IMG/VR virus record: IMGVR_UViG_3300034095_001493
Span: 1 to 28,475 of that record
Strand: one strand, 5' to 3'
Length of the DNA stretch: 28,475 nt
From: a virus
Shown here: positions 407-21,678 of the stretch, one piece after another
Numbering within the stretch: position 1 is the stretch's first letter
Layout: each line of letters opens with the position of its first letter
The notes under the pieces: generated by a model
The model's database searches: none
What the model was told of the DNA's origin: nothing
The model's input: the letters and a program-made list of their open reading frames with translations, nothing else
Translations under genes and position numbers: made by a program

Positions 407-1033
407 ATGAAGACTACGATTTTAATCACTGAACAACAAAAAAGACGACTTATCATTGAATCATTGAATGATGAGGTAAATGATAATGTAACAGAAAATG
501 TGTCGTTATTTAAAAAAATAGCACAATTTTCGTCTGATGAATTTTCTAATAATCTTGGTTTCCTAATAACTTGGGGAGCGGGTATTGGTGGTTTCATGGG
601 ACCTGTTAATAGTTTCTTATCTGGTCAGTATCCTAATTTAAGTGAAACCGATACAAGTCTAATTTTATTAGGTGTTCTTGGTACTATTTTTATGAATGGT
701 AAAGATTTAATTTTTGACGTTATTAATAAGATTAAGGAGAATGGTTTAACTAAAGAATTTAAAACTACGTTGGGAAAAGCTAAAGACTTAAAAACAACAT
801 TTACATCATTCTTAAAATCAATTGACGTTAATGTTGGTAGTATTATGACTATGTTATCATACGCGTTTATGATACCTTCATTAGGACCAATTATTCACTT
901 TATACAATCGGGTAGTGTTAGTCATGATGACATTAAATTATTTATCGCGTCGTTAGGGATGTCAAAGTTTATTACGTTGTCTACTAAAACTTTAAGTGTT
1001 TTTATTAAAAAATTAATGGATAAATTGAAATAG
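407..1033 (+). CDS. Leader-bearing membrane protein, candidate internal head protein
   Basis: 208 residues from the ATG at 407; an upstream ATG at 383 is rejected because it would displace the shared leader and lies upstream of the promoter element at 392-399. Residues 1-18 (MKTTILITEQQKRRLIIE) match the leader found on four other proteins here and end in I-I-E, which fits T4-type prohead protease cleavage before S19. Hydrophobic segments at about 50-72, 83-97 and 144-167 are rich in Gly and suggest membrane insertion; residues 100-140 form a basic helical stretch, and the C-terminus is basic and amphipathic. No family recognised. It could be a head protein ejected into the host envelope, but that is inference from the leader and composition. 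Ends one base before the convergent gene. Confidence 0.8.
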   Translation: MKTTILITEQQKRRLIIESLNDEVNDNVTENVSLFKKIAQFSSDEFSNNLGFLITWGAGIGGFMGPVNSFLSGQYPNLSETDTSLILLGVLGTIFMNGKDLIFDVINKIKENGLTKEFKTTLGKAKDLKTTFTSFLKSIDVNVGSIMTMLSYAFMIPSLGPIIHFIQSGSVSHDDIKLFIASLGMSKFITLSTKTLSVFIKKLMDKLK

Positions 1034-2035
1034 TTACACGTTTTGTAATAATGTGTTGATTACTGTTTCTTGGTCTCTTTGATTTAGTGTGTGAATATCA
1101 GGATGGGTTTCGAACCAATTTCTAATTACAGATTCCAACGGAATTCGTCTTACTTTAGATAATCTTTTAAAACCTTTAACTTGGGCCTTTATTTCATATG
1201 GTTTTGTATAATAATGTAATGATTCCTCACTTTTTTCATCATCTTCAAAATCATATTCACCTGTAGTATATTGATTGTAATGTTCTAATTCATGGGCAAT
1301 TAAATCATTTAACTCACCAATAATATCATACATCATTTTTTTAATGTCCCCATTAGGGTTATACACAATAAGAACTTCAATGGTGTCTTCGTGTTTAACA
1401 TAATTACCATTAACTAAAAATGTTTTCACATCTTCATTAGGTCTAATCACAAGTTCAACTGTAATATTTTTAGGACCATTAATGAATTCATATGTCATAT
1501 CATCACTAATGTCTTCAGGTAAGGCATATTCCCCATCACCTTTGGTTTTTAATACTTTAACAATATCTTTTACAATTGTTCTAATTGCGTGTCTATTCAT
1601 TTTACCTTCTAATAAATTATTAACTTCATCAGTAACCACATCAATGTTTTCAATATTAACAATTCCATCAAATCCAATTCTACTTTTTAAAACTCCTTCA
1701 ATATCATGTTTGATAACATTAATCATTTGTCTTGAAAAAAGTCGTATAATGTTGTTAAATTGGTCATAATCCAATATAGTTTTAATTTGTTTTAACCGAC
1801 TTAAATAATCAACATCACCACCAACAATTGAAATATTCAGATAGATTACGGGCATCCAATCACCAACAACTATCTTGTTTTTAATGTCAATAATCTCATC
1901 AACAACATAATTAATGTGTCCCTCCATTTTTTTAGTGGAATATGAATCATCAAAAGTAAGTCCGTCATATCCAAAGGTATTATTCTTTAATATTCGACTT
2001 ATAAAACTTATATTGTATTGGTCTTCTTGTGACAT
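1034..2035 (-). CDS. Predicted zinc metallopeptidase (HExxH)
   Basis: 333 residues. The only recognisable feature is a gluzincin/zincin-type site: HELEH at 248-252 inside a hydrophobic helix (ELNDLIAHELEHYNQY), followed about 29 residues later by TKPYEIKAQVKG, where E281 could be the third zinc ligand. Residues 1-200 match nothing I know. Many phage genomes carry such single-domain zincins of unknown target; a role in virion maturation or entry is possible. An ATATTTAT element at 2055-2062 lies 19 nt upstream of the ATG, the same spacing as at the gene starting at 4770, so it is likely expressed late. No signal peptide and no leader of the (L/I)-x-E type. Confidence 0.72.
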   Translation of the reverse strand: MSQEDQYNISFISRILKNNTFGYDGLTFDDSYSTKKMEGHINYVVDEIIDIKNKIVVGDWMPVIYLNISIVGGDVDYLSRLKQIKTILDYDQFNNIIRLFSRQMINVIKHDIEGVLKSRIGFDGIVNIENIDVVTDEVNNLLEGKMNRHAIRTIVKDIVKVLKTKGDGEYALPEDISDDMTYEFINGPKNITVELVIRPNEDVKTFLVNGNYVKHEDTIEVLIVYNPNGDIKKMMYDIIGELNDLIAHELEHYNQYTTGEYDFEDDEKSEESLHYYTKPYEIKAQVKGFKRLSKVRRIPLESVIRNWFETHPDIHTLNQRDQETVINTLLQNV

Positions 2036-2054
2036 TTTAACTCTTTATATACTT

Positions 2055-2062
2055 ATAAATAT
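2055..2062 (-). promoter_or_regulatory. Late-type ATATTTAT element of the HExxH peptidase gene
   Basis: On the minus strand the context is AAATATATTTATAAG, 19 nt before the ATG at 2035. Confidence 0.45.
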
Positions 2063-2140
2063 ATTTTATTTTTCATTTGTGAACTTAATAAATATTTTGA
2101 AAAATAAAATTATAGATAAAGGTACAAAAAAATACATTAA

Positions 2141-2584
2141 ATGTTTAAAAATATTGACATGGAATTACTAAATACTCACCCAATAAAAAAGTCAGACCTA
2201 GGTTTTCACGGAAATCTATTCGGGGGGAAATTACTTGCTTGGTTAGACGCATCAGCCGTTGCTTACGCAATGCAATTGTGTGATACACCAAGAATGGTTA
2301 CAGTGTCGATTGATAAATGTGTTTTTGAAAAACCCTCAAAGGAGGGTCAATTATTAAAGATTTTTGGGTGGCCGTCAGCTATCGGAACAACCTCAGTAAC
2401 ATTATATATTGAAGCTCGAGCTCACAATGTTAGGACTGGTAAACAATTTATAGTCTTAAAAACACATACTAAATTTGTTTATATTGATGAAGATGGTGCT
2501 CCGTTACCGTTGAAGGATAAGTCAATCAAACGAATTAATGATATGATTGAATTAAATAAATTAGAAACTGAAGATTCTATATAA
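2141..2584 (+). CDS. Hotdog-fold acyl-CoA thioesterase
   Basis: 147 residues from 2141; an internal ATG at 2159 (MELLNTHPIKKSDLG) is an equally plausible start because known YciA-type proteins begin near this point. The HGNLFGGKLLAWLDASA segment is the classic helix-loop of hotdog acyl-CoA hydrolases (YciA/BACH type), followed by strands with VTVSIDKCVFEKP and the IEARAHNVRTGK strand. The family hydrolyses acyl-CoA to free acid and CoA as an oligomer in the cytoplasm. A single-domain thioesterase is a metabolic gene unusual for phage, possibly adjusting host lipid or CoA pools during infection. Its 3' end overlaps the convergent gene by 8 nt. Strong family call; substrate unknown. Confidence 0.85.
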   Translation: MFKNIDMELLNTHPIKKSDLGFHGNLFGGKLLAWLDASAVAYAMQLCDTPRMVTVSIDKCVFEKPSKEGQLLKIFGWPSAIGTTSVTLYIEARAHNVRTGKQFIVLKTHTKFVYIDEDGAPLPLKDKSIKRINDMIELNKLETEDSI

Positions 2585-3776
2585 ATTGAATAGAAACTTT
2601 TAGATTCCCATCACCTTTAATTACTCTGTGGTATACACCTTCAGGGATGATGTATTGTTTACCAACTTCAAGTTGTTTAGGTAATTCATTATCTATTTGG
2701 ATTCCCCAACCATTACCTTCAATAATTGTAATTAATCGGTCTTCTCTATCTCTATGCCATTTAAACTCGTCTGAGTTAGTTTGTTCACTAAAAACTCGTA
2801 CTTTATTATCACCCTCTTTAATTTCGTCAAACGGTAATTCCTCGGTTTTAGATTTTTTGTTTTTAAATAACTTTAAAAGAAATAAAAACACAGTTCCTCC
2901 AGGTAATAAGAATATTCCAGCCATACCAACTTTTACCATGGTTCTTTTAAAAACACCTTTAAGTTCGTTACCAATTTTTTCACGTTCTTCTTTACTAATT
3001 GGTTCATCACTATTAACTAATTTCGTTAAATTAGAATACGCACTTTTAGCATCATCACCTGAATTTTTCAATTCTTCTAAGAATGTTTTTTTAATTGATG
3101 AACTATGTTTGGTAAAAAAATTTTTTACTTTGTTCTCAGATAACTCAGTAGATATTTGAGCAATTTCATTAATGTTATTATCCATTTCCTCAACATCAGT
3201 GTATAATGAATACGCAACAAAATCACTATTTTGAATCATACGAGTTAACACTCTATTAAGTGTTTTTTCTGCGGCATCTCTTAAATCATCGTCGTTAGGG
3301 TCTTTAATATATAGAGTAATAATTACTCTTACTGAAATATCCTCACCCCTACTCCAATTTGTGTTTTCGGGTTTAACGTATTCAACCACAAATTTAGATT
3401 CTTCCGAATCATAACCCGACAAATATTCTTGCAACTCAGTTTTAAATTTTTCAGCGGATGATACTAAAGAATCAAATATTTCAGGAACAATGGTATTAAA
3501 AAATAATTGAGTATTATACTCGTTGAACAATTGTACAAATCTACAGGTTTCACGTAATATTGAGCCAAATTTTTCATTTAGACCACCTTCACTATTAAAT
3601 GTGTTAATATATACCTCAAAAGTATCTTTACTATTGTAGATATTGTATTTTAATGAAACTAACTCAACTTCAGGAGTTTTCTCAAAAGTTATATCATACT
3701 GTTTTTTTAACCGTATTAGTGTTACTTGAATAAACTTTTCAAAATTTGTTTTAACTTTTAATTCTCTTTCGTTCAT
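2577..3776 (-). CDS. Unknown membrane protein with C-terminal cupin domain
   Basis: 399 residues with at least three regions. Residues 1-215 are a soluble alpha/beta region of no known family. Residues about 225-305 form a helical segment ending in KVGMAGIFLLPGGTVFLFLLKLFKN, a hydrophobic hairpin with a central PGG that resembles the membrane segment of LETM1-like proteins. Residues 330-399 look like a cupin barrel: WHRDREDRLITIIEGNGW, then LEVGKQYIIPEGVYHRVI, with H and E residues placed as metal ligands. Fusion of an envelope segment and a sugar- or ligand-binding cupin is unusual. The stop codon of the following gene's leader region is 1 base away, so it is co-transcribed downstream of or with the gene at 3778-4770. 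Role unknown. Confidence 0.65.
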   Translation of the reverse strand: MNERELKVKTNFEKFIQVTLIRLKKQYDITFEKTPEVELVSLKYNIYNSKDTFEVYINTFNSEGGLNEKFGSILRETCRFVQLFNEYNTQLFFNTIVPEIFDSLVSSAEKFKTELQEYLSGYDSEESKFVVEYVKPENTNWSRGEDISVRVIITLYIKDPNDDDLRDAAEKTLNRVLTRMIQNSDFVAYSLYTDVEEMDNNINEIAQISTELSENKVKNFFTKHSSSIKKTFLEELKNSGDDAKSAYSNLTKLVNSDEPISKEEREKIGNELKGVFKRTMVKVGMAGIFLLPGGTVFLFLLKLFKNKKSKTEELPFDEIKEGDNKVRVFSEQTNSDEFKWHRDREDRLITIIEGNGWGIQIDNELPKQLEVGKQYIIPEGVYHRVIKGDGNLKVSIQFI

Positions 3777-3777
3777 A

Positions 3778-4770
3778 TTACCAATTTCTTGATGATTTTA
3801 GTCCCAATTTTTTTGCGTATCTCCCGACATTACAACTCCAATATCCTGCCATAGTTCTATCTTTCTTTTGGTCACAATTATGTCTCGCTCTAAATGATTT
3901 GGCTCTATCTTTATTACCATTTTTAACTCTTAAATTGGGGTCACCAAATGTAACCTTTTTTACGGTACCTTTAGGAGTTTTAACATAAACTGCGAATTTT
4001 TTTGGTCCACCTGGTGTTCTAAATGGACTACCTAATTTAACATTTTTACCACGGTGTAATGCCTCACTAATTAATTCCTCCAAATCCTCTTCATACATTG
4101 GAGCGTCCAAATAAATTTCTTCACCACTTTCAAGGATTACTTTTTTTCCTAAGTCAGATTCAACAATCCAACTGTCTTCATCATTTAATGATATTAAATT
4201 TTCATTATATAGTCTTCTAACTTCATTAATTATTCTAAAATAATTTTCAGAATAAACTCTAAATACATTATCAGATAATGATATGTTATTATCTAAATGA
4301 TATTTTAATTCGTTTGATATTTTAATATTTTCAGTTAACTTCATTGGTGTCTTTTTACCCCATTTTTTACCTTTACCTTTTGTCCCACATGCGGATGGTG
4401 TTGGTCTACAAGCAGGATATTTTGCTCTATCCTCACCGTCACTTCTACCACATGATTTACACGTTTTTTTACCGTTAGAGTCGGTACGACAGGTATTACA
4501 ATCAACCCATCCTTGTGATTTGCCTTTACCTCCTTGTCTTGAAAACCATCCGTGTAATCCTGATTTATTTTCTTTTGAGTAATCAGTTTTAGTTCCTTCA
4601 TCAATTTCGGTTTCCTCTTTCCAAATTTTACCTTGTCGACATTTAACTACCGCACCTGAGGCGTATGCCGATGGCCAAACATCGTACTTTTGTTTTGCCA
4701 ATCTTGTACATCTATCATCCTTTTTTTTAGCTTCTAATAGTATCTCATGAATTATTGTTTTAATATTCAT
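3778..4770 (-). CDS. Leader-bearing Cys-rich basic protein (DUF5872-like), candidate internal head protein
   Basis: 330 residues from the ATG at 4770; a GTG at 4800 in the same frame is rejected because it falls inside the promoter region. Residues 1-13 (MNIKTIIHEILLE) form the shared leader ending L-L-E before A14. Residues 18-50 contain C21 and C44; residues 70-130 contain C91xxC94, C104xxC107, C121 and C128, a possible zinc ribbon, with GLHGWFSRQGGKGKSQGW and YPACRP segments I associate with DUF5872-type proteins of giant viruses and marine phages. The C-terminal 90 residues (FRTPGGPKKFAVYVKT, then FRARHNC and YWSC) form a second basic Cys/His module common in marine phages. High Lys/Arg content fits a DNA-associated head protein. 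A frame-shifted ORF at 4341-4604 is a shadow of it. Confidence 0.78.
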   Translation of the reverse strand: MNIKTIIHEILLEAKKKDDRCTRLAKQKYDVWPSAYASGAVVKCRQGKIWKEETEIDEGTKTDYSKENKSGLHGWFSRQGGKGKSQGWVDCNTCRTDSNGKKTCKSCGRSDGEDRAKYPACRPTPSACGTKGKGKKWGKKTPMKLTENIKISNELKYHLDNNISLSDNVFRVYSENYFRIINEVRRLYNENLISLNDEDSWIVESDLGKKVILESGEEIYLDAPMYEEDLEELISEALHRGKNVKLGSPFRTPGGPKKFAVYVKTPKGTVKKVTFGDPNLRVKNGNKDRAKSFRARHNCDQKKDRTMAGYWSCNVGRYAKKLGLKSSRNW

Positions 4771-4789
4771 AAATATCTTTTTTATTTTA

Positions 4790-4797
4790 ATAAATAT
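4790..4797 (-). promoter_or_regulatory. Late-type ATATTTAT element of the Cys-rich leader protein gene
   Basis: Minus-strand context GTGATATTTATTAAAA, 19 nt before the ATG at 4770. It lies back to back with the host-type TATATTTG at 4801-4808, so the two promoter classes meet in one 20-bp intergenic region. Confidence 0.5.
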
Positions 4798-4800
4798 CAC

Positions 4801-4808
4801 TATATTTG
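4801..4808 (+). promoter_or_regulatory. Bacteroidetes-type -7 element TATATTTG
   Basis: Matches TAnnTTTG and lies exactly 4 nt before the ATG at 4813, which would place the transcript start at or next to the start codon. No clear -33 TTTG is visible. Confidence 0.55.
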
Positions 4809-4812
4809 AGAT

Positions 4813-5217
4813 ATGAAAGAAAAAACGTTATATATTCTTAGGGGTATACCAGGTGCGGGTAAAACCACATTGGCAAAGTCTATTGGTGCGGTTCATTTTG
4901 AAGCTGATATGTACTTTATGGTTGGTAAGGAATATAAATTTGATGTTACCAAATTAAAACAAGCACACGCTTGGTGTCAAGACCAAGTTAGAATCTCAAT
5001 GAAGAACTCTGATAACAAAATTGGGGATTTAAGAATTGCAGTGTCCAACACATTCACACAAGAGTGGGAAATGGAACCGTATGTCGAAATGGCGAAAGAA
5101 TACGGATTTAAAGTTTTCACACTTATTGTTGAAAATCGTCACGGGGGTGTTAATCAACACGAAGTACCTGAAGACAAAATTGAATTAATGAAAAACCGTT
5201 TTGAAGTAAAATTATGA
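4813..5217 (+). CDS. P-loop kinase, polynucleotide-kinase / N4BP2L-like
   Basis: 134 residues. Walker A is GIPGAGKTT at 11-19, directly after the first strand (LYILR), followed by HFEADMYF with D32 in the position used by polynucleotide-kinase-like enzymes to activate the phosphate acceptor. Further on, RIAVSNTFTQEWEMEPYVEMAKEYG matches the pattern of the Walker B/substrate region of the AAA_33/NEDD4-binding-protein-2-like family, and the tail has VPEDKIELMKNRFE. The family phosphorylates 5'-OH ends or small substrates. In a phage, RNA or DNA end repair is the natural guess. There is no phosphatase domain as in T4 Pnkp. The host-type promoter and the 4-nt overlap with the next gene suggest early co-expression. 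Confidence 0.85.
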   Translation: MKEKTLYILRGIPGAGKTTLAKSIGAVHFEADMYFMVGKEYKFDVTKLKQAHAWCQDQVRISMKNSDNKIGDLRIAVSNTFTQEWEMEPYVEMAKEYGFKVFTLIVENRHGGVNQHEVPEDKIELMKNRFEVKL

Positions 5218-5432
5218 AAATGTTCCGAAGATTGTTAAGTTCAGTACTACTTGTTGCAAGAATAATAGTAATGTTTAAATTTATAATGTTATCGTGGTTA
5301 ACTATCTTTTATCCCACAGATTACCCATCGTCAGTATTAACTTGGTGGGTTTACTATATGATATTCGATATGTGGATGATATTAATGTTACCGTCTGATG
5401 AAATTATCCCTGACGATGAAGATGAAGACTAA
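5214..5432 (+). CDS. Small membrane protein with acidic tail
   Basis: 72 residues; its ATG overlaps the stop of the P-loop kinase gene as ATGA, so translation is probably coupled. Two hydrophobic segments at about 7-30 and 42-60, then a strongly acidic tail (DDEDED). No family recognised. The basic N-terminus (MKMFRR) suggests the N-terminus faces the cytoplasm. It ends one base before a convergent membrane protein gene. Could be an anchor for the kinase or an envelope modifier; nothing in the sequence decides this. Confidence 0.6.
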   Translation: MKMFRRLLSSVLLVARIIVMFKFIMLSWLTIFYPTDYPSSVLTWWVYYMIFDMWMILMLPSDEIIPDDEDED

Positions 5433-5433
5433 T

Positions 5434-5655: not shown

Positions 5656-5740
5656 CCATATGTGTTAATTTAACTTTTATGTAATAAATAATTACGAAAT
5701 TTAATATAAATTAATTGTTGAGTTATTTTGATTTATACTA

Positions 5741-5748
5741 ATATTTAT
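5741..5748 (+). promoter_or_regulatory. Late-type ATATTTAT element of leader protein gene at 5769
   Basis: Context TAATATTTATTATTATAAATA; the element ends 20 nt before the ATG. A T4-orientation TATAAATA also occurs at 5752-5759, 9 nt before the ATG, so either could be the real box. Confidence 0.5.
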
Positions 5749-5768
5749 TATTATAAATAAGCAAAAGT

Positions 5769-6275
5769 ATGAAAAAATATATAATTAACGAAAATAAACT
5801 TCGTACCGCGATACGTCAACATCTTCTTGAGCAAGAGTCAACACAAGAACCTAAAGAAGAACAAAAAAGATGTTTAACAACTAATACGGTTAACTTGGAT
5901 GAAATCGTTGGATTAAATGATGGATTTAAAAATTACACTTCAAAACTTTATAAAAGAAGTGGTGGAATTAGTGGTATGGTTGATGCCTTGGACATATTAA
6001 GAACTTTAAGGTTACATCCTGATGTTAGTGATTCAGGTGAACACTTATCTTATGATTTAATGAATCACTTAAACACATTCCGTGGTAAAAACTATATGGA
6101 TGAAACAACTAGTAATTGTCACAGTGCTATGGATAAAGTTATCGAACTTTATAAAGAAAACCAACATGGTGAAGAATTAGTTAAAGATATTGAGAAAGTA
6201 TTAGCACACGCAGACCCGTCGTCAAGAGCTAAAGAATATTTAAAGAGATGTTTACAATTAGTAAAAGAAAAATAA
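5769..6275 (+). CDS. Leader-bearing helical protein, candidate internal head protein
   Basis: 168 residues. Residues 1-21 (MKKYIINENKLRTAIRQHLLE) form the shared leader ending L-L-E before Q22. A short polar linker (residues 22-35) leads to a predicted all-helical domain with C36, C117 and C161; DALDILRTLRLHPDVSDSGEHLSYDLMNHL is its most regular part. The Cys residues could form a disulphide or bind metal. No family recognised. If the leader is removed by a prohead protease, the mature product is about 147 residues. It is followed by a structured RNA region and a strong terminator, and the late-type element is at 5741-5748, so it is probably a single-gene late transcript. Confidence 0.78.
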   Translation: MKKYIINENKLRTAIRQHLLEQESTQEPKEEQKRCLTTNTVNLDEIVGLNDGFKNYTSKLYKRSGGISGMVDALDILRTLRLHPDVSDSGEHLSYDLMNHLNTFRGKNYMDETTSNCHSAMDKVIELYKENQHGEELVKDIEKVLAHADPSSRAKEYLKRCLQLVKEK

Positions 6276-6319: not shown

Positions 6320-6324
6320 AAACT

Positions 6325-6356
6325 AAGGGGAGGTTTCGCTACCATCCCCTTTTTTT
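6325..6356 (+). terminator. Rho-independent terminator
   Basis: AAGGGGA pairs with TCCCCTT, with an inner GGT/ACC pairing around TTCGCT, followed by seven T residues. It separates the leader protein gene from the holin-like gene. Confidence 0.85.
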
Positions 6357-6639: not shown

Positions 6640-6642
6640 ACT

Positions 6643-6671: not shown

Positions 6672-7688
6672 CTATGTTTTACCAAATCCAGCATTTAATC
6701 CAGTATTTACCACCCTACTTTGAATATCTCCTTTGACGTATTCTTTGGCAACTTTTACAACAGGTTTAACCATAGGTTTAAGCACTTTAGCAACTGTCGT
6801 AACAGGTTTAACCATAGGTTTAACCACTTTAGCAACTTTCATAACAGGTTTAATTTTACTAAATTCCACAAAAGTTTGTTCAATTCTGGTTAAAACACCA
6901 CCAACACGATTAATTATCCCCAATAATGGGTTTAACAGACTTTTTAATGTAGGAACTTTATTTATTATCGCACTTATCGCTTGTCTAATTTGCAATATTA
7001 CTTTAGAACCGTAACTACTAATTTTGGTTAAAAACAGTTTAAGATGACTCCACCAAGTTGTTTTAGACGCTTTTGTGAAGATGTTTATTAATTTAGTTTC
7101 ACCTTTCAATATAGGTTTAAGAGCCCCCATTATTTTACCACCAACACCTGCCAACAATAACCAAATTAAATCGTTAAGAAGGTTAAACCAATTAACGACC
7201 CCTTTTTGTACCCAAGAATAAATATCATAAGCAACTAATAATCCCCAAGCAACCATATTTATTACGTGACCACCAAAGAGTGATATAACAATTTGTGCAA
7301 TGCTTCCACCAACACCACTCATAGCATCTCTAAATCCATTCGCAACTTGTTCCAATGTTAAACCTTGAAAGGGATTTGGAAGCTTTTTAGCTTCACCTTT
7401 AGGTGCTGTACTTTTACATATAGTATTCGCGTTTTTATATATATAGTCACCCGTCCCGTCAGTTGTATTAGACCAAGGTTTAACCAATTTTTTAGAGTAA
7501 GAACTTATTTCTTGTTGTGTCATTTGTCTAAACCCTATGGGACATACACTTTGATTTTTACCAGAATTTTTCAAATTGGTCATCCAATCATTACTAATTT
7601 TGGGATTACTAATTTTGGGTTGTTCGGATATAACTTTTTTAACTAGTCTAACCAAATCGGACTCGGTTAATCTTATTACTTTGCTCAT
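6672..7688 (-). CDS. Leader-bearing membrane protein with KP repeats, candidate internal head protein
   Basis: 338 residues. Residues 1-22 (start MSKVIRLTESDLVRLVKKV, then ISE) are the shared leader ending I-S-E before Q23. Residues 23-110 are soluble with C49 and C91. Residues 125-190 form a long Gly-rich hydrophobic region of about three helices (GGSIAQIVISLFGG, VAWGLLVAYDIY, LIWLLLAGVGG). Residues 200-280 are basic amphipathic helices. Near the C-terminus the motif KVAKVxKPMVKPV is repeated, encoded by 42-bp DNA repeats. The hydrophobic core plus cationic repeats suggests a protein that enters or crosses a membrane, perhaps ejected from the head, which is inference. The late-type element (GTATTTAT) is 14 nt upstream. 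Confidence 0.8.
   Translation of the reverse strand: MSKVIRLTESDLVRLVKKVISEQPKISNPKISNDWMTNLKNSGKNQSVCPIGFRQMTQQEISSYSKKLVKPWSNTTDGTGDYIYKNANTICKSTAPKGEAKKLPNPFQGLTLEQVANGFRDAMSGVGGSIAQIVISLFGGHVINMVAWGLLVAYDIYSWVQKGVVNWFNLLNDLIWLLLAGVGGKIMGALKPILKGETKLINIFTKASKTTWWSHLKLFLTKISSYGSKVILQIRQAISAIINKVPTLKSLLNPLLGIINRVGGVLTRIEQTFVEFSKIKPVMKVAKVVKPMVKPVTTVAKVLKPMVKPVVKVAKEYVKGDIQSRVVNTGLNAGFGKT
6759..6852 (-). repeat. 42-bp tandem repeat inside the KP-repeat protein gene
   Basis: Two units (6759-6800 and 6801-6842) begin AACAGGTTTAACCATAGG on the plus strand and differ at a few positions; a third partial unit starts at 6843. The period is 14 codons, encoding the repeated KVAKVxKPMVKPV segment. Confidence 0.85.
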
Positions 7689-7702: not shown

Positions 7703-7710
7703 ATAAATAC
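7703..7710 (-). promoter_or_regulatory. Late-type element (GTATTTAT) of the KP-repeat protein gene
   Basis: Minus-strand context AATGTATTTATAGTAAAA, 14 nt before the ATG at 7688; one mismatch to ATATTTAT. Confidence 0.4.
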
Positions 7711-9057: not shown

Positions 9058-9444
9058 TTATTTATTTAAAACTTCTAAACAATTTTTTTGCCAATCAAAA
9101 TGGCCAACGTTTAATGGTTGACAACTATCTTTAGATTCCATAATTGATATTAATTCGTGTAAGTCATCATCCAAGTGGAATACGAACCCCATACCTTCTA
9201 AAAACGTAATCTTATCTTTATGTGCGGTAAACTTAACTCTACTATTTGGAATACCAATCCTTTCACAACTTTCCCACAAATCTTTATTCCAATCAGGTTT
9301 TGTCCAAGGATGGAGTATAGACTCATCTTCACTTACTCTTGAAGTAACAACCCATACCTCATACCCTTGTTCGACTAGTTCTTTTGCGAATTCCTCGACA
9401 TGAGGTAACGATAAGGTACCGTCGTAATCAAAACTAACTTTCAT
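9058..9444 (-). CDS. HAD-superfamily phosphatase / nucleotidase-like
   Basis: 128 residues. Motif I is SFDYDGTL (D6, D8); motif II is WVVTSR near residue 35; motif III contains TAHKDK with the conserved Lys; motif IV is HLDDDLHE. All four HAD motifs are present in a compact domain with no sizeable cap. Such small HAD proteins are common in phages and may dephosphorylate nucleotides, but substrate cannot be read from sequence. A TATATTTG element lies 23 nt upstream (9468-9475), overlapping the far side of the dnaK terminator region, so it is transcribed independently of dnaK. Confidence 0.78.
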   Translation of the reverse strand: MKVSFDYDGTLSLPHVEEFAKELVEQGYEVWVVTSRVSEDESILHPWTKPDWNKDLWESCERIGIPNSRVKFTAHKDKITFLEGMGFVFHLDDDLHELISIMESKDSCQPLNVGHFDWQKNCLEVLNK

Positions 9445-15093: not shown

Positions 15094-15113
15094 CAATATA
15101 AAATTTGAATATT

Positions 15114-15944: not shown

Positions 15945-15977
15945 AACAAAACCCCTCGTTTGAGGGGTTTTTTGTTT
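15945..15977. terminator. Bidirectional terminator
   Basis: AACAAAACCCCTC, loop GTTT, GAGGGGTTTTTTG; serves the endolysin and the convergent metallophosphatase gene. Confidence 0.88.
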
Positions 15978-16688: not shown

Positions 16689-16703
16689 TTTAAAAGTTTT
16701 TTA

Positions 16704-16711
16704 CAAATATA
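16704..16711 (-). promoter_or_regulatory. Bacteroidetes-type -7 element TATATTTG
   Basis: On the minus strand, 15 nt before the ATG of the metallophosphoesterase gene. Confidence 0.5.
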
Positions 16712-16712
16712 A

Positions 16713-16907
16713 TTAAAATTTATTATTTTGGGTTAAATGTTTTATTAAATCATCAATTGATAATTCATCTTTTGGTTTACCAAGATTATATGAGGTAAAA
16801 GTTTTATCTCCGTTTTTTAATTTAACCATCAGATAACCTAGTTCACTTAAATATATTTTTTCTAATTCACCCACACCATTGGGGGTGTTAATCGTCAATC
16901 CCACCAT
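16713..16907 (-). CDS. Small unknown protein, SH3-like
   Basis: 64 residues; its start lies inside the end of the gene at 16895, a 13-nt overlap that suggests coupled translation. The N-terminal half (INTPNGVGELEKIYL; YLMVKLKNGDKTFTSYN) has the strand pattern of a small beta-barrel, and the C-terminus is one helix (SIDDLIKHLTQNN). Similar small barrels are common in phages and bind nucleic acid or protein, but no family is recognised. It is the last gene of a three-gene run starting at 17688. Confidence 0.6.
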   Translation of the reverse strand: MVGLTINTPNGVGELEKIYLSELGYLMVKLKNGDKTFTSYNLGKPKDELSIDDLIKHLTQNNKF

Positions 16908-17509
16908 CCCTCGACACGATTTGACATTATTTTGAATACTAATTTACGACATCTATCTTGATTTTCGTGAGCAATTTCCATTGCAATTAGGTTTTTATCT
17001 TTTTCTTCTACAGGTCGACTGAATCGGTTAACCTCACCTGACATCACACGTTTGTATTGACGTGGGTATTTTTTGAAGTATTCATCAAAATTCTCACTAA
17101 TTTCTTCAATCTCCAATCTTTTGGAATCTTTATATTTTTCAGGGATATTATCTACATCTGTAACATCCAACCAAAGAATGTTAGATTCGTGATAATCCAT
17201 ATATTCCATATTGTAGTGGTCATCTTGACAACGTTGGATTAAACGTGAAGTTAATCTCATTAATTCGGCATCACGTTTAGCATTAGTGTGTCTATTTTTC
17301 CCACCGATATATTCAGCTTGGTTGTTCAATTTAACTCTAATAACTTCATAAATGAAAAATGAATCCCAATCACGGTCTTTCCATATTACAGGAAACCATT
17401 TCCATAGGTTTTTAACACCTTCAATAAAGTTTTTGTGGCAATATTTACCATCAAATCTCCACCATAAACGGATTTTTTCAAATATGGTTATTTTTTCATC
17501 TCTTACCAT
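16895..17509 (-). CDS. Conserved-looking phage protein of unknown function (204 aa)
   Basis: 204 residues, aromatic-rich and highly charged. An N-terminal helix-rich part (EKIRLWWRFDGKYCHKNF; LWKWFPVIWKDRDWD) is followed by a basic helical region with RDAELMRLTSRLIQRCQDDHY and an acidic stretch before a C-terminal helix (AHENQDRCRKLVFKIM). I have a sense of similar proteins with this Trp-rich start in large phages but cannot name a family. No membrane segment, signal or catalytic motif. It is the middle gene of an operon, overlapping both neighbours. Confidence 0.7.
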   Translation of the reverse strand: MVRDEKITIFEKIRLWWRFDGKYCHKNFIEGVKNLWKWFPVIWKDRDWDSFFIYEVIRVKLNNQAEYIGGKNRHTNAKRDAELMRLTSRLIQRCQDDHYNMEYMDYHESNILWLDVTDVDNIPEKYKDSKRLEIEEISENFDEYFKKYPRQYKRVMSGEVNRFSRPVEEKDKNLIAMEIAHENQDRCRKLVFKIMSNRVEGWWD

Positions 17510-17688
17510 CCTTCAAAAGTTTTTTTAGATTCTTCATATAATTCATAAAATACTTCAGGTTTTACCCAATCGTATCTATTTTCTTCATGACCTTTAAGTT
17601 TAAAAAACATTTCACCTTCAAGTTCAATGTATTTTTTAACTTTACCCGTAATCGGGTTTAATATCAAATATTCGTTTATTATCTTCAT
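17503..17688 (-). CDS. Small unknown protein (61 aa), first gene of a three-gene operon
   Basis: 61 residues from the ATG at 17688 (MKIINEYLILNPITGKVKKY). An in-frame ATG at 17715 is rejected because the TATATTTG element lies between the two, only 4 nt before the second. The sequence has two strands followed by a helical C-terminus (WVKPEVFYELYEESKKTFEGW). It overlaps the next gene by 7 nt. No family recognised. Confidence 0.62.
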   Translation of the reverse strand: MKIINEYLILNPITGKVKKYIELEGEMFFKLKGHEENRYDWVKPEVFYELYEESKKTFEGW

Positions 17689-17692
17689 AGAA

Positions 17693-17700
17693 CAAATATA
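17693..17700 (-). promoter_or_regulatory. Bacteroidetes-type -7 element TATATTTG
   Basis: TATATTTG, then TTCT, then the ATG at 17688: a 4-nt gap predicting a leaderless transcript, and the reason for rejecting the longer start at 17715. Confidence 0.6.
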
Positions 17701-17716
17701 GTAATTATCTATCAAT

Positions 17717-17751
17717 AAAAAAAGGGGTTAGTAAATAAATTACAAACCCCC
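17717..17751 (-). terminator. Minus-strand terminator
   Basis: Minus strand: GGGG, imperfect TTTGTAA/TTACTAA arms, CCCC, then seven T residues. It ends either the gene at 17832 or the candidate small RNA that precedes it. Confidence 0.75.
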
Positions 17752-17783
17752 ATTATATATAGGCACTCTGATGAGTGTGATAG
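17717..17783 (-). ncRNA. Candidate small RNA: late-type element, hairpin, terminator, no ORF
   Basis: Minus strand: the late-type element at 17789-17796 is followed not by an ORF but by a hairpin (CACTC/GAGTG with a 4-nt loop, 17764-17777) and the terminator at 17717-17751. The product would be about 65 nt. No known RNA family recognised; alternatively this is only the 3' trailer of the gene at 17832. Confidence 0.35.
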
Positions 17784-17788
17784 TATTA

Positions 17789-17796
17789 ATAAATAT
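17789..17796 (-). promoter_or_regulatory. Orphan late-type ATATTTAT element
   Basis: Minus-strand context GATATATTTATTAATAC matches the late-type consensus as well as the gene-linked copies do, but no start codon with a reading frame follows before the terminator. Confidence 0.4.
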
Positions 17797-17831
17797 ATCT
17801 ATTTTTTTAAAAAATTAACGTTTTAATAACA

Positions 17832-18050
17832 TTAGTTAATATTTTTTTGGATTTCAATAGTTCTCAACGATTTTTGTCGTTCATATGTTGAATTAATAGT
17901 CATTAATTTAATGTCAGATAACTCATCGGACCATTTAGTTAAATACGATTCAAATAATCTATCACTCACATTAATGTGGTCAAGTGTTAATGATGAATTT
18001 AAAGTTTTTAATACCCATTGGTATTCAGTTTCAATTGAAATTATGTTCAT
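17832..18050 (-). CDS. Small unknown helical protein (72 aa)
   Basis: 72 residues, predicted mostly helical: ETEYQWVLKTLNSSLTLDHI, then FESYLTKWSDELSDI, and a basic tail. No family recognised, although the pattern of a short helical protein ending in a charged tail is common in phages. It begins 2 nt after the stop of the membrane protein gene at 18053, so the two are co-transcribed. Its codon choice and composition are like its neighbours. Confidence 0.6.
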   Translation of the reverse strand: MNIISIETEYQWVLKTLNSSLTLDHINVSDRLFESYLTKWSDELSDIKLMTINSTYERQKSLRTIEIQKNIN

Positions 18051-18052
18051 AG

Positions 18053-18247
18053 TTATTTATTTTGTTTTGACATGTGAGATAATAATGATTTTAAATTAAC
18101 ACTCGGATTATCGGTTTTACCTTTAACTTTCTTGGTAGTTGTGAACTTAATATGTATGAATTTCTTAAAATGGTTATACAATAATACCATAAAATAAATT
18201 GGGAATCCAATTACGATTAATAAGATAATGAATAAGAATATTTTCAT
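18053..18247 (-). CDS. Small single-pass membrane protein
   Basis: 64 residues: a hydrophobic N-terminal helix at residues 3-26 (LFIILLIVIGFPIYFMVLLY) followed by a basic cytoplasmic-type tail (KKFIHIKFTTTKKVKGK). No cleavage site is evident, so it is an anchor rather than a secretion signal. It is the upstream member of a two-gene unit. Function unknown. Confidence 0.6.
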   Translation of the reverse strand: MKIFLFIILLIVIGFPIYFMVLLYNHFKKFIHIKFTTTKKVKGKTDNPSVNLKSLLSHMSKQNK

Positions 18248-18321
18248 TGTTACAGTTATTTATATTAATTATTGACCAAACCTGAATTTGACCTTATACT
18301 GAATTATAGTATATTTTTATT

Positions 18322-18600
18322 ATGAAAAAAGCTTTAGAAGTTTTATTGAACAAAGTTTTCAAAAAAGATTTAGAACTTCTATATGGGGACGGGTGTTATA
18401 TTATAGTTAATCGAGTACATTTTTCTCAGTATCAAAAGTGTTATATGGTTGATTGTAAATTAATGATTCCCAAAGATAATAAACTTGAGGACTTTGAGAT
18501 AATTTATCCTGATGGATTAAATTATTTAATGAATGAATCGTGGAAATATATGGTGGTATCAGAAAGTACACAATTTATGTCCACTGTAGACTTTTTTTAG
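18322..18600 (+). CDS. Small unknown protein (92 aa)
   Basis: 92 residues: an N-terminal helix (KKALEVLLNKVFKKDLELLY) followed by an alternating strand pattern (CYIIVNRVHF; KCYMVDCKLMIP; DFEIIYPDGLNYLMN). Three Cys residues, no recognised motif. No transmembrane segment. The TATATTTT stretch just before the ATG is a weak match to the host-type element. The next gene begins 23 nt downstream with its own strong TATATTTG element, which in fact overlaps this gene's stop codon region. Confidence 0.58.
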   Translation: MKKALEVLLNKVFKKDLELLYGDGCYIIVNRVHFSQYQKCYMVDCKLMIPKDNKLEDFEIIYPDGLNYLMNESWKYMVVSESTQFMSTVDFF

Positions 18601-18608
18601 TATATTTG
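18601..18608 (+). promoter_or_regulatory. Bacteroidetes-type -7 element TATATTTG
   Basis: Directly after the stop codon of the preceding gene, 15 nt before the ATG at 18624. Confidence 0.5.
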
Positions 18609-18623
18609 TGAAAAAAACGAACT

Positions 18624-18953
18624 ATGGGAACTTTAGCACTTGTAAATGTATATAACGAAAACGGGGATAGATTATTCAGTCTACACGTACAACACGATGG
18701 TGGTTCATTACTAAAAAAACGATTAGAAAACATTATAGATAATGGTCGATTAATCGGTAATTTAGGACTAACAACACCAAAATTAGGTGAGGCGTTTTTA
18801 AGTATGGGGTGCTTTGGAGCGTCTTTGGTTGCATTACTCAAAAATGAGTGTGGGGAGATATATATAACTAATAATACTAATACATTGGGGTTGTACAGTT
18901 ACACCTACGATATTCGTTTTGACTACGAAACCAATAAAATTGTATTGAATTAA
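18624..18953 (+). CDS. Unknown protein (109 aa)
   Basis: 109 residues with a strand-rich start (LALVNVYNENGDRLFSLHVQ), a central Gly-rich part (GNLGLTTPKLGEAFLSMG), a short hydrophobic helix (FGASLVALLKN) and a C-terminal strand pair (YTYDIRFDYETNKIVLN). The predicted fold is alpha/beta with no catalytic signature. I recall similar short proteins in phages but cannot name a family. It has its own host-type promoter element and is followed by the FKBP gene 47 nt later. Confidence 0.62.
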   Translation: MGTLALVNVYNENGDRLFSLHVQHDGGSLLKKRLENIIDNGRLIGNLGLTTPKLGEAFLSMGCFGASLVALLKNECGEIYITNNTNTLGLYSYTYDIRFDYETNKIVLN

Positions 18954-19000
18954 ACTTGATTATTAACAATAATAGACTATAATTACTAAAAAACTAAATT

Positions 19001-19426
19001 ATGAAAAAAGTACAAAATGGTGACACTGTTGTAGTTAATTACACAGGAAGACTAGAAGATGGGACTGTTTTTGATTCATCTTTAACTGAAGGAAGAGAAC
19101 CTTTAAAAGCTCAATTAGGACAAGGTCTTTTAATTAAAGGATTTGAAGATGGTATTATTGAAATGACTATCGGTGATAAAAAAACAATTGAAATTGACCC
19201 ATCAAACGCATATGGTGACGTTAACTCAGAAATGATTGTTGAAGTCCCAAGAGAACAAATACCTGAAGGTGTTTCAGTTGGTGATATGTTACAAGCTGAA
19301 GGACCAATGGGACCTGTTAATGTTAAAGTTGCCGAAATTAAAGAAGGAACTATCGTAGTTGACGCTAATCATCCTTTGGCAGGACAAAAATTAATCTTTG
19401 ATTTAGAACTTGTTTCCATTGATTAA
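19001..19426 (+). CDS. FKBP-type peptidyl-prolyl isomerase, SlyD-like
   Basis: 141 residues. The FKBP core is at 1-69 and 123-141 (DTVVVNYTGRLEDGTVFDSS; GFEDGIIEMTIGDKKTIEI) with the insert-in-flap domain at about 70-122, and the canonical end DANHPLAGQKLIFDLELV. SlyD-type enzymes speed prolyl cis-trans isomerisation and bind unfolded chains through the flap domain. The His-rich metal-binding tail of E. coli SlyD is absent. Together with DnaK it gives this phage two folding factors, plausible for large virion assembly. A terminator follows. Confidence 0.93.
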   Translation: MKKVQNGDTVVVNYTGRLEDGTVFDSSLTEGREPLKAQLGQGLLIKGFEDGIIEMTIGDKKTIEIDPSNAYGDVNSEMIVEVPREQIPEGVSVGDMLQAEGPMGPVNVKVAEIKEGTIVVDANHPLAGQKLIFDLELVSID

Positions 19427-19450
19427 GACTAAAAAATAGAAAATCACGAG

Positions 19451-19484
19451 ACCACCAATTAAACACTGGTGGTTCTTTTTTTTT
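19451..19484 (+). terminator. Terminator after the FKBP gene
   Basis: ACCACCA, 9-nt loop, TGGTGGT, then a C and nine T residues. A second hairpin with TGGGG/CCCCA arms follows at 19486-19511 without a good T run. Confidence 0.82.
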
Positions 19485-19561
19485 ATGGGGGTTTGATTGA
19501 ATAATCCCCAAAATTTTATTAACTTTAACTAAAAGTTATTAACAATCTAAACTAAACGATT

Positions 19562-19897
19562 ATGAAAGAAAAATTTGAAAAAGTAATGTCATTAACAAAA
19601 CAATTTTTTAAAAACGTCATGGTATATGGTATTGTTATCATATCAGTAATTGCGTCATTCATTGTAGGGTATACGTACCGCAAATTGACAACTAAAACCA
19701 TTGTACCTAAAACCGAAATGGAAAGGGTTAGAAAGAAAGATGTAACATTGGCAATTGATGAAAGTCATCATCTAATCATCATTAACAACAACACAGGGGA
19801 CTACACTGTCTACCAAGATTCAATAGGTAAAACTATTTTTAAACTTTACGCAGCGAATGTTTGGGGACAACACAATTCTACTAACACTTTAAAATAA
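19562..19897 (+). CDS. Membrane-anchored small protein upstream of lytic transglycosylase
   Basis: 111 residues. One transmembrane helix at about 19-40 (MVYGIVIISVIASFIVGYTY), then an extracytoplasmic-type strand-rich domain (KDVTLAIDESHHLIIINNNT; YTVYQDSIGKTIFKLYAANVWG). Positive charges before the helix fit N-in topology. It lies 7 nt before the anchored transglycosylase, so the two are probably expressed together and could cooperate in the periplasm, for example as a spanin-like or regulatory partner; no motif proves this. Its first residues resemble those of the protein at 8800-9003. Confidence 0.65.
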   Translation: MKEKFEKVMSLTKQFFKNVMVYGIVIISVIASFIVGYTYRKLTTKTIVPKTEMERVRKKDVTLAIDESHHLIIINNNTGDYTVYQDSIGKTIFKLYAANVWGQHNSTNTLK

Positions 19898-19904
19898 AAA
19901 ACCT

Positions 19905-20462
19905 ATGAAAATTAAAGATTTAACACTAGTCTCATTATTTACAGTTTCAATGTTGATTTTATTCACGTCTTTACAATCATTCTACCAAAAATCTGATTTT
20001 GAAAAAGAGATTGTGTTGGTAAAGAATCATTCAGATATAATAACCCCAACACCAATGTTTATGTATGAAAACATTGAGAAATATTCAAAAAAATATAAAA
20101 TACCTAAACATATTGCTTACAATATCTCGTTTTTGGAAACTCGTTATCAAGGACCATTTCATTGGAAATATAACCCACATCAAACATCATGTGTGGGGGC
20201 GTTAGGACCAATGCAAATCATGCCAGGAACGGCTCGACTAATTCAGAAACATAGTGTACCTAATAATAAGTTGAAAACCGATGTTAGATTAAACATTGAG
20301 ATTAGTATGAAGTTGTTACGAAAATTACACGACAAATATGGTGATTGGGAAATTGTTTGTGGTTGTTACAACACAGGAAAACCATTAGTAAATGATTACG
20401 CTAGATTTTGTGCTAACACATATGATTACCAAGATAATTGGGTACGACCAAATAATATTTAA
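19905..20462 (+). CDS. Membrane-anchored lytic transglycosylase (SLT)
   Basis: 185 residues. Residues 6-26 form a signal anchor (LTLVSLFTVSMLILFTSL). The SLT domain begins near 55: IAYNISFLETRYQG with catalytic E78, then GALGPMQIMPGTA (98-110), the GxMQIMPxT signature, and GCYNTGK near 153 in the position of the AYNAG motif. It cleaves peptidoglycan glycan strands to form 1,6-anhydro sugars in the periplasm. Unlike the leader-bearing transglycosylase at 20917, this one is built for export through the host membrane, suggesting a role in lysis or in remodelling of the infected cell wall. Confidence 0.9.
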   Translation: MKIKDLTLVSLFTVSMLILFTSLQSFYQKSDFEKEIVLVKNHSDIITPTPMFMYENIEKYSKKYKIPKHIAYNISFLETRYQGPFHWKYNPHQTSCVGALGPMQIMPGTARLIQKHSVPNNKLKTDVRLNIEISMKLLRKLHDKYGDWEIVCGCYNTGKPLVNDYARFCANTYDYQDNWVRPNNI

Positions 20463-20849
20463 TTACTTATAAAGTATTGATTCAGAATCGGGAAAGTCAC
20501 GTTCAAATTTTTTCATCATGGCTCCTGATTCTGAATTTGCTTCATCTTCATTCTCACCACCGATATCAGGACCCATATCTCGTTTCTTAACGTCCATCTG
20601 ATGTTCATGAACCCATTCGTGAGCCAAGGTTCTTAAAATGTCACGATTCATCCTATTTTTAGATAATATTCGAATGTCATGAGGTAGTCTACTACCTGTG
20701 GTCATTTTACCAACTCTTTCACCAAGGAAAGTGATTGTTAAATCGTGTTTTAATGGGAATTCCTTCTGAAGGTATTTTATAAATTTATTATAAACTTCTA
20801 CCTCATCTTTTTTAATTCCTGATTTTTTATGTATAATAGTTACTTTCAT
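20463..20849 (-). CDS. Small zinc metallopeptidase (HExxH)
   Basis: 128 residues. HEWVH at 77-81 lies in the helix LRTLAHEWVHEHQ, and the downstream ENEDEANS (100-106) supplies a third acidic ligand, the arrangement of minimal gluzincins. The N-terminal 70 residues form a strand-helix scaffold (EVYNKFIKYLQKEF). No signal peptide. It is a second, unrelated-looking zincin in this window besides the one at 1034-2035. The late-type element lies 7 nt upstream (20857-20864). It could process virion proteins or act on the envelope; unknown. Its stop abuts the stop of the transglycosylase gene. Confidence 0.78.
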   Translation of the reverse strand: MKVTIIHKKSGIKKDEVEVYNKFIKYLQKEFPLKHDLTITFLGERVGKMTTGSRLPHDIRILSKNRMNRDILRTLAHEWVHEHQMDVKKRDMGPDIGGENEDEANSESGAMMKKFERDFPDSESILYK

Positions 20850-20856
20850 TCTGTTT

Positions 20857-20864
20857 ATAAATAT
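20857..20864 (-). promoter_or_regulatory. Late-type ATATTTAT element of the small HExxH peptidase gene
   Basis: Minus-strand context AAGATATTTATAAACAGA then ATG; 7-nt gap. Confidence 0.45.
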
Positions 20865-20891
20865 CTTATAATAAACTTTAAGAATAGTAAA

Positions 20892-20899
20892 CTATTTAT
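20892..20899 (+). promoter_or_regulatory. Late-type element (CTATTTAT) of the leader-bearing transglycosylase gene
   Basis: Context AAACTATTTATATATTAAAA, 17 nt before the ATG at 20917; one mismatch to ATATTTAT. Confidence 0.4.
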
Positions 20900-20916
20900 A
20901 TATTAAAAGATTAATT

Positions 20917-21678
20917 ATGAAATTTATAATCACAGAATCGCAAAAAAACAAAATGGTTAAGAAATATTTGAAGGAACAAGATAGTAGTTCTGATGGTGGA
21001 CTTAGTCTTGGTGACATTGGTAGACAAGCTATTGAATACGCTAAAAAATTAATTAGAGATAAAGATTCAGGTTCTTCATCATCATCAAATAATGGTAGTT
21101 CACATGATGGTGCGTCAAGTACCTCAAGTACTCCAAGTGGACCTGTTAGTATTGGTAATGTATCGGCTAAAGGTCAAGAACTATTGAATAATCCAAATTT
21201 TAAATCTAAACTTAGTGAAATATCAAGTGCGATTGGTATTGATGAGAATTCAATTATTAAGTTGATGCAACACGAATCAGGTTTAAATCCTTCGGTTAAA
21301 AATAGTATCGGATGTGTTGGTTTAATTCAATTTTGTCCAGATGGTAAGAATGGAACAACTAAAACAATAAGTGGTAAGAAATACTCATTAGAAGATATTA
21401 GAACTAATTTAGATACTCAGATGGAGGCCATAAAAGAATTTTGGATGGCGGGACATAAAAGTGGTAAAATTAAAACACCTACTGATTTGTACATATTCAA
21501 CTTTTGGCCTGTAGCCGCAGGTAAACCAAATGACTATGTATTACAAACAAATGGTATGTCCGCACAAACAGTTGCAAAAGCGAACCCTGTATTTAACAAA
21601 AAATTAGGTAAACCTGTTGACACACCATTAACTGTTGGTGATTTAAATCAGTACTACCGAACTACAGGAATGGTATAA
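20917..21678 (+). CDS. Leader-bearing lytic transglycosylase, candidate ejected virion enzyme
   Basis: 253 residues. Residues 1-20 (MKFIITESQKNKMVKKYLKE) are the shared leader ending L-K-E before Q21. A helix (32-48) and a Ser/Gly-rich linker (51-77) precede a lysozyme-fold domain from about 82: IIKLMQHESGLNPSVKNSIG with catalytic E120, then CVGLIQFCP, the counterpart of the GLMQIxP signature with Gln kept, and YIFNFWPVAAGKP in place of AYN. There is no signal peptide or membrane anchor, in contrast to the enzyme at 19905. The leader suggests loading into the head; T7 and other phages eject transglycosylases to breach the wall during DNA entry. That role is inference. Confidence 0.83.
   Translation: MKFIITESQKNKMVKKYLKEQDSSSDGGLSLGDIGRQAIEYAKKLIRDKDSGSSSSSNNGSSHDGASSTSSTPSGPVSIGNVSAKGQELLNNPNFKSKLSEISSAIGIDENSIIKLMQHESGLNPSVKNSIGCVGLIQFCPDGKNGTTKTISGKKYSLEDIRTNLDTQMEAIKEFWMAGHKSGKIKTPTDLYIFNFWPVAAGKPNDYVLQTNGMSAQTVAKANPVFNKKLGKPVDTPLTVGDLNQYYRTTGMV

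Follow-up and report, generated by a model that had tools for sequence, protein, structure and literature searches.

Five proteins encoded in a 28,475-base virus record from IMG/VR (IMGVR_UViG_3300034095_001493, the whole of which is called the window below), from a phage known from metagenomes only, begin with short leaders that end in (L/I)-x-E and are joined to bodies which, as first claimed, are unrelated to each other (best cross match among the five, E 0.18). They are likely to serve as capsid-targeting sequences in a head-assembly pathway of T4 type, cut off by a prohead protease and carried by a large set of head-packaged proteins; the targeting, the cutting and the ejection are all inferred. 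The original prediction of head-targeting leaders in a T4-like phage is supported by the S77 protease, gp23, portal and terminase of this genome as well as by the L/I-X-E ends; it stands, with its scale understated. The internal proteins of T4 carry propeptides of 10-19 residues, their capsid-targeting function has been established by fusions, and the gp21 protease has the specificity L/I-X-E, as described in the relevant portions of PMC9026906. Like the proteins considered here, IPI, IPII, IPIII and Alt of T4 each place a short N-terminal propeptide ending in (L/I)-x-E in front of differing mature parts, and the leaders of this phage, at 13-22 residues and with (L/I)-x-E in all five, fit a T4-type propeptide of about 7-20 residues. 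Judged by eye, the likeness to the leader of T4 ipII and ipIII, which both start MKTYQEFIAE-A (ipI has TITE-A), is limited to the M-K at the start and the I-x-E at the end.

The five N-termini, named here by the position at which each gene starts, read as originally claimed in ending (L/I)-x-E at residues 18, 13, 21, 22 and 20 (proteins 407, 4770, 5769, 7688 and 20917) and in having Gln directly after the Glu in three of the five; the formula M-K-x-I-I-(T/N)-E proposed for their beginning is strict only in 5769 and 20917, the others reading ILITE, RLTE and IIHE. All five also contain an earlier (I/L)-x-E (ITE, IHE, INE, LTE and ITE). Across 11 aligned homologues of the 407 leader, three of them near-identical, I7, E9 and E18 are invariant. 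A comparison with shuffled controls had been proposed along with the prediction, and both the leader patterns and a leader profile exceed the shuffles. A two-part pattern ending in xEQ is found in 4 of 40 window open reading frames (ORFs) vs. 0.08 from shuffled N-termini; a second pattern, without the Gln, picks out three of the five and no other ORF (0.15 expected, a result reached in 1 of 2000 shuffles). The profile finds 4 of 46 window ORFs, all belonging to the five, vs. 0.1 expected. The 4770 leader, with 0.2 bits on that profile, represents a shorter type, and the strict pattern for this type has a single match in the window (4770 itself) vs. none in 100 shuffles.

Two longer contigs place the window in its genome: bases 1-25241 are 100% identical to a 96,511-base contig (G058), and the whole window is 100% identical to part of a 72,977-base sister contig (G005). 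The window itself has no S77 protease match. The search of the rest of the genome for a gp21-type prohead protease that was suggested at the outset, with absence of the enzyme counted as a refutation, found one on G058, at 30152-30880 (PF03420, 84.2 bits; phrog_207, 7.5e-43), and its ELNHP and SSRGxGS blocks align with T4 gp21 and contain the His and Ser that we take to be catalytic. The same contig encodes a T4-type head module, with terminase (PF03237), portal (PF07230) and gp23 (PF07068), in the T4 order with other genes interspersed: terminase, portal, a gp68-like protein (assigned by position only), S77 protease, an acidic scaffold-like protein (27236-28777; recognized only from its position and composition, with no match to a family of known function) and gp23. 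T4 and this phage therefore have the same S77 protease family and the same portal, gp23 and terminase types. The named isolates closest to the gp23 of a relative, G001, are Flavobacterium phage immuto (vB_FspM_immuto), whose annotation includes a prohead core serine protease, and Microcystis phage Mel-JY01. Candidate cut motifs in the head proteins of G058 are KGILIE-YDAG in the protease, VKESLTE-QDEE in the scaffold-like protein and ASHLINE-ATSE in gp23; the first and last match the positions of their T4 equivalents, LLIE-T at the start of gp21 and SFLTE-A in gp23. Among the nine nearest protease-bearing relatives the protease motif reads LIE or LVE, and the gp23 place reads INE, LTE or LNE in the eight of them having gp23; an L-x-E lies near residue 48 of the scaffold in most and is absent in G038. 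In more distant contigs the motif becomes looser, the Glu being absent at its place in the proteases of immuto and G014.

The leaders extend far beyond the five. Among ORFs of at least 60 amino acids in 18 records, 238 of 3475 score at least 8 bits on the leader profile, vs. 2.1 per shuffled set; the training set of the profile overlaps its targets, so that the shuffle is the control to use, the ORF totals are approximate because gene calls were mechanical, and four ORFs are counted twice because the window and G005 overlap. Hits per record are 29 of 127 in G005, 31 of 185 in G001, 31 of 143 in G004, 43 of 369 in G083, 36 of 344 in G064, 22 of 313 in G038, 16 of 156 in G040 and 9 of 123 in G058 (four of these in the window), and low counts are seen in G014 (0 of 187), G037 (0 of 175) and G007 (2 of 306). 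For the species as a whole the union comes to 34 ORFs found by the profile and the short-leader ORF 4770, or about 35 ORFs in approximately 136 kb. The 238 hits sort into 158 body families, 117 of them singletons. An [LI]xE starts at residues 10-28 in 174 of the 238, and at residues 3-28 in 234, the latter partly by construction. The short leader, MKxLIKxLLRE, is also frequent, with 7 strict matches in G083, 5 in G040 and 4 in G046 vs. 0-0.01 per shuffle. Leaders are present on many phage contigs, some of them larger than 300 kb; a tblastn search with a 25-residue leader against named phages gave no matches. A simple count of xEQ leaders in immuto gave 3 vs. 3.8 expected, and since this does not exceed expectation the xEQ form is not general. 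One segment of G005 (9099-32579; L128-L129) forms a dense island of 25 leader ORFs of at least 8 bits, nearly all in the same direction, and resembles an internal-protein locus.

One indication of a cut site is the edge at which conservation ends. For class B leaders (IRLTESDL), cases were gathered with a DNA pattern ending at motif residue 13, among the matches listed, and a shortened form of the pattern occurs in none of 17 random large viral contigs. An [ILVMF]xE follows soon after the pattern in 116 of the 117 distinct N-terminal cases listed, and with stricter start rules in 108 of 108 vs. a shuffled mean of 64.7. In the main register (n=82) the Glu at P1 is found in 82 of 82, which is partly by construction because the register was chosen by that motif; P3 is I in 72, L in 7, V in 2 and M in 1, P2 is free, P1' is Gln in 31, Ser in 12 and Asn in 12, and conservation then vanishes, the information being 4.3 bits at P1, 1.5 at P1' and 0.2-0.8 beyond. 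The fall after P1 and the agreement of position are not artefacts of the choice of register. A second register (n=26) shows the same edge without the Gln. Class A leaders (MKxxIITE) from the same collection give a weaker signal, with xEQ in 8 of 61 distinct cases vs. 2.8 expected (largest shuffle 7) and xxE in 49 vs. 36.

In an unbiased test the ORFs were chosen by their first residues only, giving 155 body families. The frequency of [ILV]xE is 50.7 per 1000 at residues 13-26, 15.5 at residues 40-120 of the same proteins (3.3-fold) and 20.0 in other ORFs, while that of xEQ is 9.7 at 13-26 vs. 0.09 at 40-120 (about a hundredfold) and 0.73 in other ORFs (13-fold); the control [ILV]xD is nearly level (18.9 vs. 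15.9, 1.2-fold). The motif is present in 102 of the 155 families vs. 44.7 in shuffles (standard deviation 5.0, largest 59 of 500 shuffles).

Among the matches listed, four body families have unlike leaders ending in (I/L/V/M)-x-E on homologous bodies, by alignments judged by eye; many listed pairs show no such exchange. In the first, MMGIVTE-SKMSLPMKISG corresponds to MKDLIRQILRE-DISTSLPIKLSG; in the second, NLLLNE-AVGVPEGI to both MRKLIERVIQE-EVGVPKNI and MRKYVMKE-EVGVPKDI; in the third, VKRVLSE-QEVEQSNYMFFSNL to VKRVLRE-THEESNRYMFFSNL and IKKILKE-ESERYMFFSNL, with a leaderless homologue in G037; and in the fourth, which has a gap between leader and body, RKSLLE-N to MKRQLKE-G and YILE-G. The DNA around the start codon is also common to leader genes with unrelated bodies, in 667 of 724 matching pairs, many of them short; one example is 93% identical over 121 bp, from -61 to +59. 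In 66 pairs, involving 41 of 175 genes, the shared DNA spans -30 to +45 and ends by +90, the bodies not being retested in this count.

A TATTTAT box, for which we found no report in open-access papers, lies 14-41 nucleotides upstream of all five leader genes of the window (Table 1). The heptamer is not overabundant in the window (28 vs. 25.4 expected). Between -38 and -14, where about 0.013 would be expected by the genome rate, it precedes 10 of 29 leader ORFs vs. 14 of 104 others in G005, 13 of 31 vs. 26 of 170 in G001, and 12 of 31 vs. 18 of 130 in G004. The box also precedes the G058 genes for the protease, the scaffold-like protein and the gp68-like protein and the window endolysin gene at 15105; 11 window ORFs in all have it between -45 and -10. 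In immuto (NC_055915.1) it stands before 29 called genes, nine of which bear the name of a virion or packaging protein (terminase, portal, sheath, tube, hub, tape measure, tail spike, tail fibre and virion protein), and before none of the named replication or nucleotide genes; the other boxed genes encode hypothetical proteins, PhoH, a lectin-type protein and two products of doubtful name. Four immuto genes, at 24569, 25061, 60009 and 117631, combine the box with an N-terminal (L/I)-x-E, as judged by eye. In these phages and in immuto the box, as TATTTAT(A), stands some 20-30 nucleotides ahead of many genes for structural and leader proteins, and it is probably their late promoter. It is not the late promoter box of T4 but the reverse complement of that box.

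What the leaders carry is varied. Among the 78 longest of 148 family representatives, no more than 20 have a Pfam match, and roughly half of these matches concern the cell wall: three PG_binding_1, two Phage_lysozyme2, and single matches to SLT, phage lysozyme, GH19, TseH and OmpA (TseH and OmpA being included for their function). The others include DUF6576, PPK2, a 5'-3' exonuclease, PhoH and Ig-like domains; the leaders assigned to the PhoH and exonuclease proteins may be spurious. PADLOC gave four matches to the 78 proteins, all weak. The description of the cargo as an "entry kit" was therefore too narrow.

Several observations weigh against the interpretation as protease-cut head-targeting leaders. 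The fourth xEQ match in the window (9058-9444, minus strand; HAD-like by eye) lies outside the five, and is probably accidental. The cultured relative immuto has 2 profile hits among 217 ORFs, and gp23 of G014, G027 and immuto has V-x-E instead of L/I-x-E. Of 34 new leader contigs that measure at least 90 kb and were picked among the pattern matches listed, 24 encode an S77 protease, vs. 9 of 17 random contigs (all those of at least 90 kb from two listings, one being 80 of 120 stretches, minus one leader contig); this difference is not clear, and co-occurrence fails to discriminate because large phage contigs are often T4-like. Three further leader contigs (G001, G004 and G038) all have the protease. 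The scaffold-like protein and the protease were tried as leader homologues and rejected, at no more than 4.5 bits on the profile. As for the box, its presence at all five window genes is not independent evidence, because it was first noticed before these genes; on other contigs 25-42% of leader ORFs have it between -38 and -14, it is absent from that interval at gp23, portal and terminase of G058, and it occurs at -12 before the window histidine kinase gene. The control [ILV]xK is also higher at residues 13-26 (41.0 vs. 22.2, 1.8-fold), so that part of the motif signal reflects the basic amphipathic stretch. Finally, 64 of the 238 profile hits lack an [LI]xE starting at residues 10-28 and 53 of the 155 leader-selected families lack an [ILV]xE starting at residues 13-28; such proteins would have to be cut at the proximal I/L-T-E or not at all.

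A further difficulty is that the class B DNA pattern also turns up in cellular assemblies, in 21 stretches, 17 of them Prevotella- or Bacteroidales-type by title. Of three such loci inspected by eye, one, in chromosome 2 of Segatella baroniae B14 (L695:1107-1367), is a lone 87-residue gene with a IRLTESDLHRIVKESV leader among host-like genes. A single-cell Prochlorococcus contig (QCKH01000009.1, L690), which accounts for two of the 21, looks phage-like and has several leader genes, both types being represented; it may come from a marine relative sorted along with the cell. The idea that the leader is a host signal was rejected, the 21 stretches coming from 257 Gb of cellular genomes vs. at least 120 in viral contigs.

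The proteins without a distal motif give rise to the best-surviving alternative, one compatible with capsid targeting of the rest, which we regard as a real possibility while leaning against it: that part of the set, mainly of the MKIIITEN type lacking the distal site, is a separate small-protein family whose first strand is merely leader-like, leaving some 15-20 cargo proteins per genome. Besides the 53 families just mentioned, one paralogous family of the MKIIITEN type has 15 members; however, a homologue in G083 (54642) has instead a short leader ending in (I/L)-x-E, and the proximal I-T-E also conforms to (I/L)-x-E.

Alternatively, the leader could be a docking helix for some other assembly (tail, baseplate or replication compartment), with the Glu edge marking only the end of the helix. 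The cell-wall enzymes and binders that make up about half of the cargo Pfam matches are often tail parts, and in the model of 5769 a flexible linker follows the leader helix. We nevertheless consider this unlikely, since the edge falls at (I/L)-x-E, a motif known for a protease family encoded in the same genome, homologous bodies bear dissimilar leaders with nearly the same terminal motif, and the mere end of a helix gives no reason to prefer Glu with I or L two residues before it and Gln after it. The model of 5769 (predicted local distance difference test score, pLDDT, 78.3), with a leader helix at residues 8-24, a disordered stretch (pLDDT below 50 at 25-30) and a compact domain, fits a removable tag. 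That the leader is instead a mobile gene-start cassette of promoter, start region and first codons, spread by recombination and without any targeting role, would account for the start-codon DNA shared by genes with unrelated bodies but is very improbable, because a neutral cassette would decay whereas the protein sequence is kept with P1 Glu fixed and P2 variable, and near one junction leaders that differ widely in sequence close with a motif of the same kind.

The leaders, cargo genes and upstream boxes of the window are given in Table 1.

Table 1. Leaders, cargo genes and upstream boxes of the five leader proteins, in window coordinates
Feature	Position	Strand	Remarks
TATTTAT box	366-372	+	41 nucleotides upstream of the 407 ATG; second copy at 393-399
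Leader MKTTILITEQQKRRLIIE	407-460	+	18 residues; predicted cut after E18; first motif I-T-E ends at E9
Cargo gene	407-1033	+	208 residues; one hydrophobic stretch; homologues in contigs G001, G004, G006, G038, G064 and G083
Cargo gene	3778-4770	-	330 residues; Cys-pair motifs by eye
Short leader MNIKTIIHEILLE	4732-4770	-	13 residues; predicted cut after E13
TATTTAT box	4790-4796	-	26 nucleotides upstream of the 4770 ATG
TATTTAT box	5742-5748	+	27 nucleotides upstream of the 5769 ATG
Leader MKKYIINENKLRTAIRQHLLE	5769-5831	+	21 residues; predicted cut after E21
Cargo gene	5769-6275	+	168 residues; conserved domain of unknown function; 145 related stretches among viral contigs
Cargo gene	6672-7688	-	338 residues; one hydrophobic stretch near residue 133
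Leader MSKVIRLTESDLVRLVKKVISE	7623-7688	-	22 residues; class B; predicted cut after E22
TATTTAT box	7703-7709	-	21 nucleotides upstream of the 7688 ATG
TATTTAT box	20893-20899	+	24 nucleotides upstream of the 20917 ATG
Leader MKFIITESQKNKMVKKYLKE	20917-20976	+	20 residues; predicted cut after E20
Cargo gene	20917-21678	+	253 residues; Ser-rich linker, then SLT transglycosylase domain

Individually, the cargo proteins differ in how much can be said of them. The transglycosylase at 20917 matches PF01464 (1.5e-7) and phrog_4067 (3.9e-8). The 4770 protein matches phrog_7595 (8.1e-13, residues 236-315) and phrog_727 (9.4e-7), and its C-terminal region is common to marine phages by tblastn (Flavobacterium phage immuto and Pelagibacter and Roseobacter phages). 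Neither 407 nor 7688 has a Pfam or PHROG match; their earlier designation as membrane proteins is weak, each having one stretch above a simple hydropathy cut. The structure model of the 407 family is poor (mean pLDDT 40.5), and that of 5769 matches neither a PDB nor a viral fold at E 0.001. Elsewhere in the window, the segment 9535-14961 encodes a phage DnaK, 61-64% identical to the DnaK of four metagenomic phage records of 630-740 kb, in the neighbourhood of a PAS/GAF histidine kinase and an ORF resembling a response regulator; a Hotdog thioesterase (4HBT) is encoded at 2141-2584, an FKBP-like protein (by eye) at 19001-19426 and a Sir2-family protein at 27111-27815 (PF02146, 2.7e-37), the last possibly involved in NAD-related host interference.

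If the leaders are indeed targeting sequences, a short hydrophobic start and an amphipathic helix would dock late-expressed, otherwise unrelated proteins into the prohead core, and the phage's own S77 protease would cut after the (L/I)-x-E at the leader end, freeing the cargo inside the head; this cutting we infer from the motif, the conservation edge and the leader exchange. By analogy with T4, the cargo would then be delivered along with the DNA. Leader and upstream region, which share DNA between genes, would often move jointly as a cassette, by which the approximately 35 ORFs in 136 kb would have been recruited. Such a number contrasts with the few tagged ORFs of T4, as do the leader sequences of at least three kinds (MKxIITE, IRLTESDL and MKxLIKxLLRE), which often hold two (L/I)-x-E motifs. 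Enzymes are brought into the protein shell of bacterial microcompartments by encapsulation peptides, also N-terminal amphipathic helices followed by a linker; no proteins are shared with those considered here, the likeness being one of analogy only, and such peptides are not known to be cut off. Closer in scale are the ejection proteins of Salmonella phage SPN3US and phiKZ-like phages, a large head-packaged set with propeptides that their prohead proteases cut after Glu (portions of PMC5694885, PMC7411985 and PMC10052503; cut-site logos are mentioned in PMC9026906), in a highly diverged capsid lineage; a single leader family across unrelated cargo is not described in the portions of those papers compared. 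In open-access papers we found neither a report of the present leaders nor a virion study of this phage or immuto.

On the fullest form of this account the case seems to us evenly balanced: that this lineage and related huge phages practise addressed delivery, in which practically any gene can be enlisted for the head by a mobile cassette of promoter plus leader. The products of 10-23% of the ORFs on some contigs (29 of 127 on the sister contig) would then enter the head, be cut at either of two (L/I)-x-E sites and reach the host as an injected repertoire, variable in content and numbering dozens of proteins. If that is true, the head cargo of these phages goes far beyond the few internal proteins of T4, and a leader readable from sequence would mark which phage proteins of unknown function are carried in the head and injected. 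Candidates for injected host-takeover and anti-defence proteins could then be listed from metagenomes, in lineages that are nearly without cultures, and the leaders themselves would provide new tags for loading foreign proteins into phage heads.

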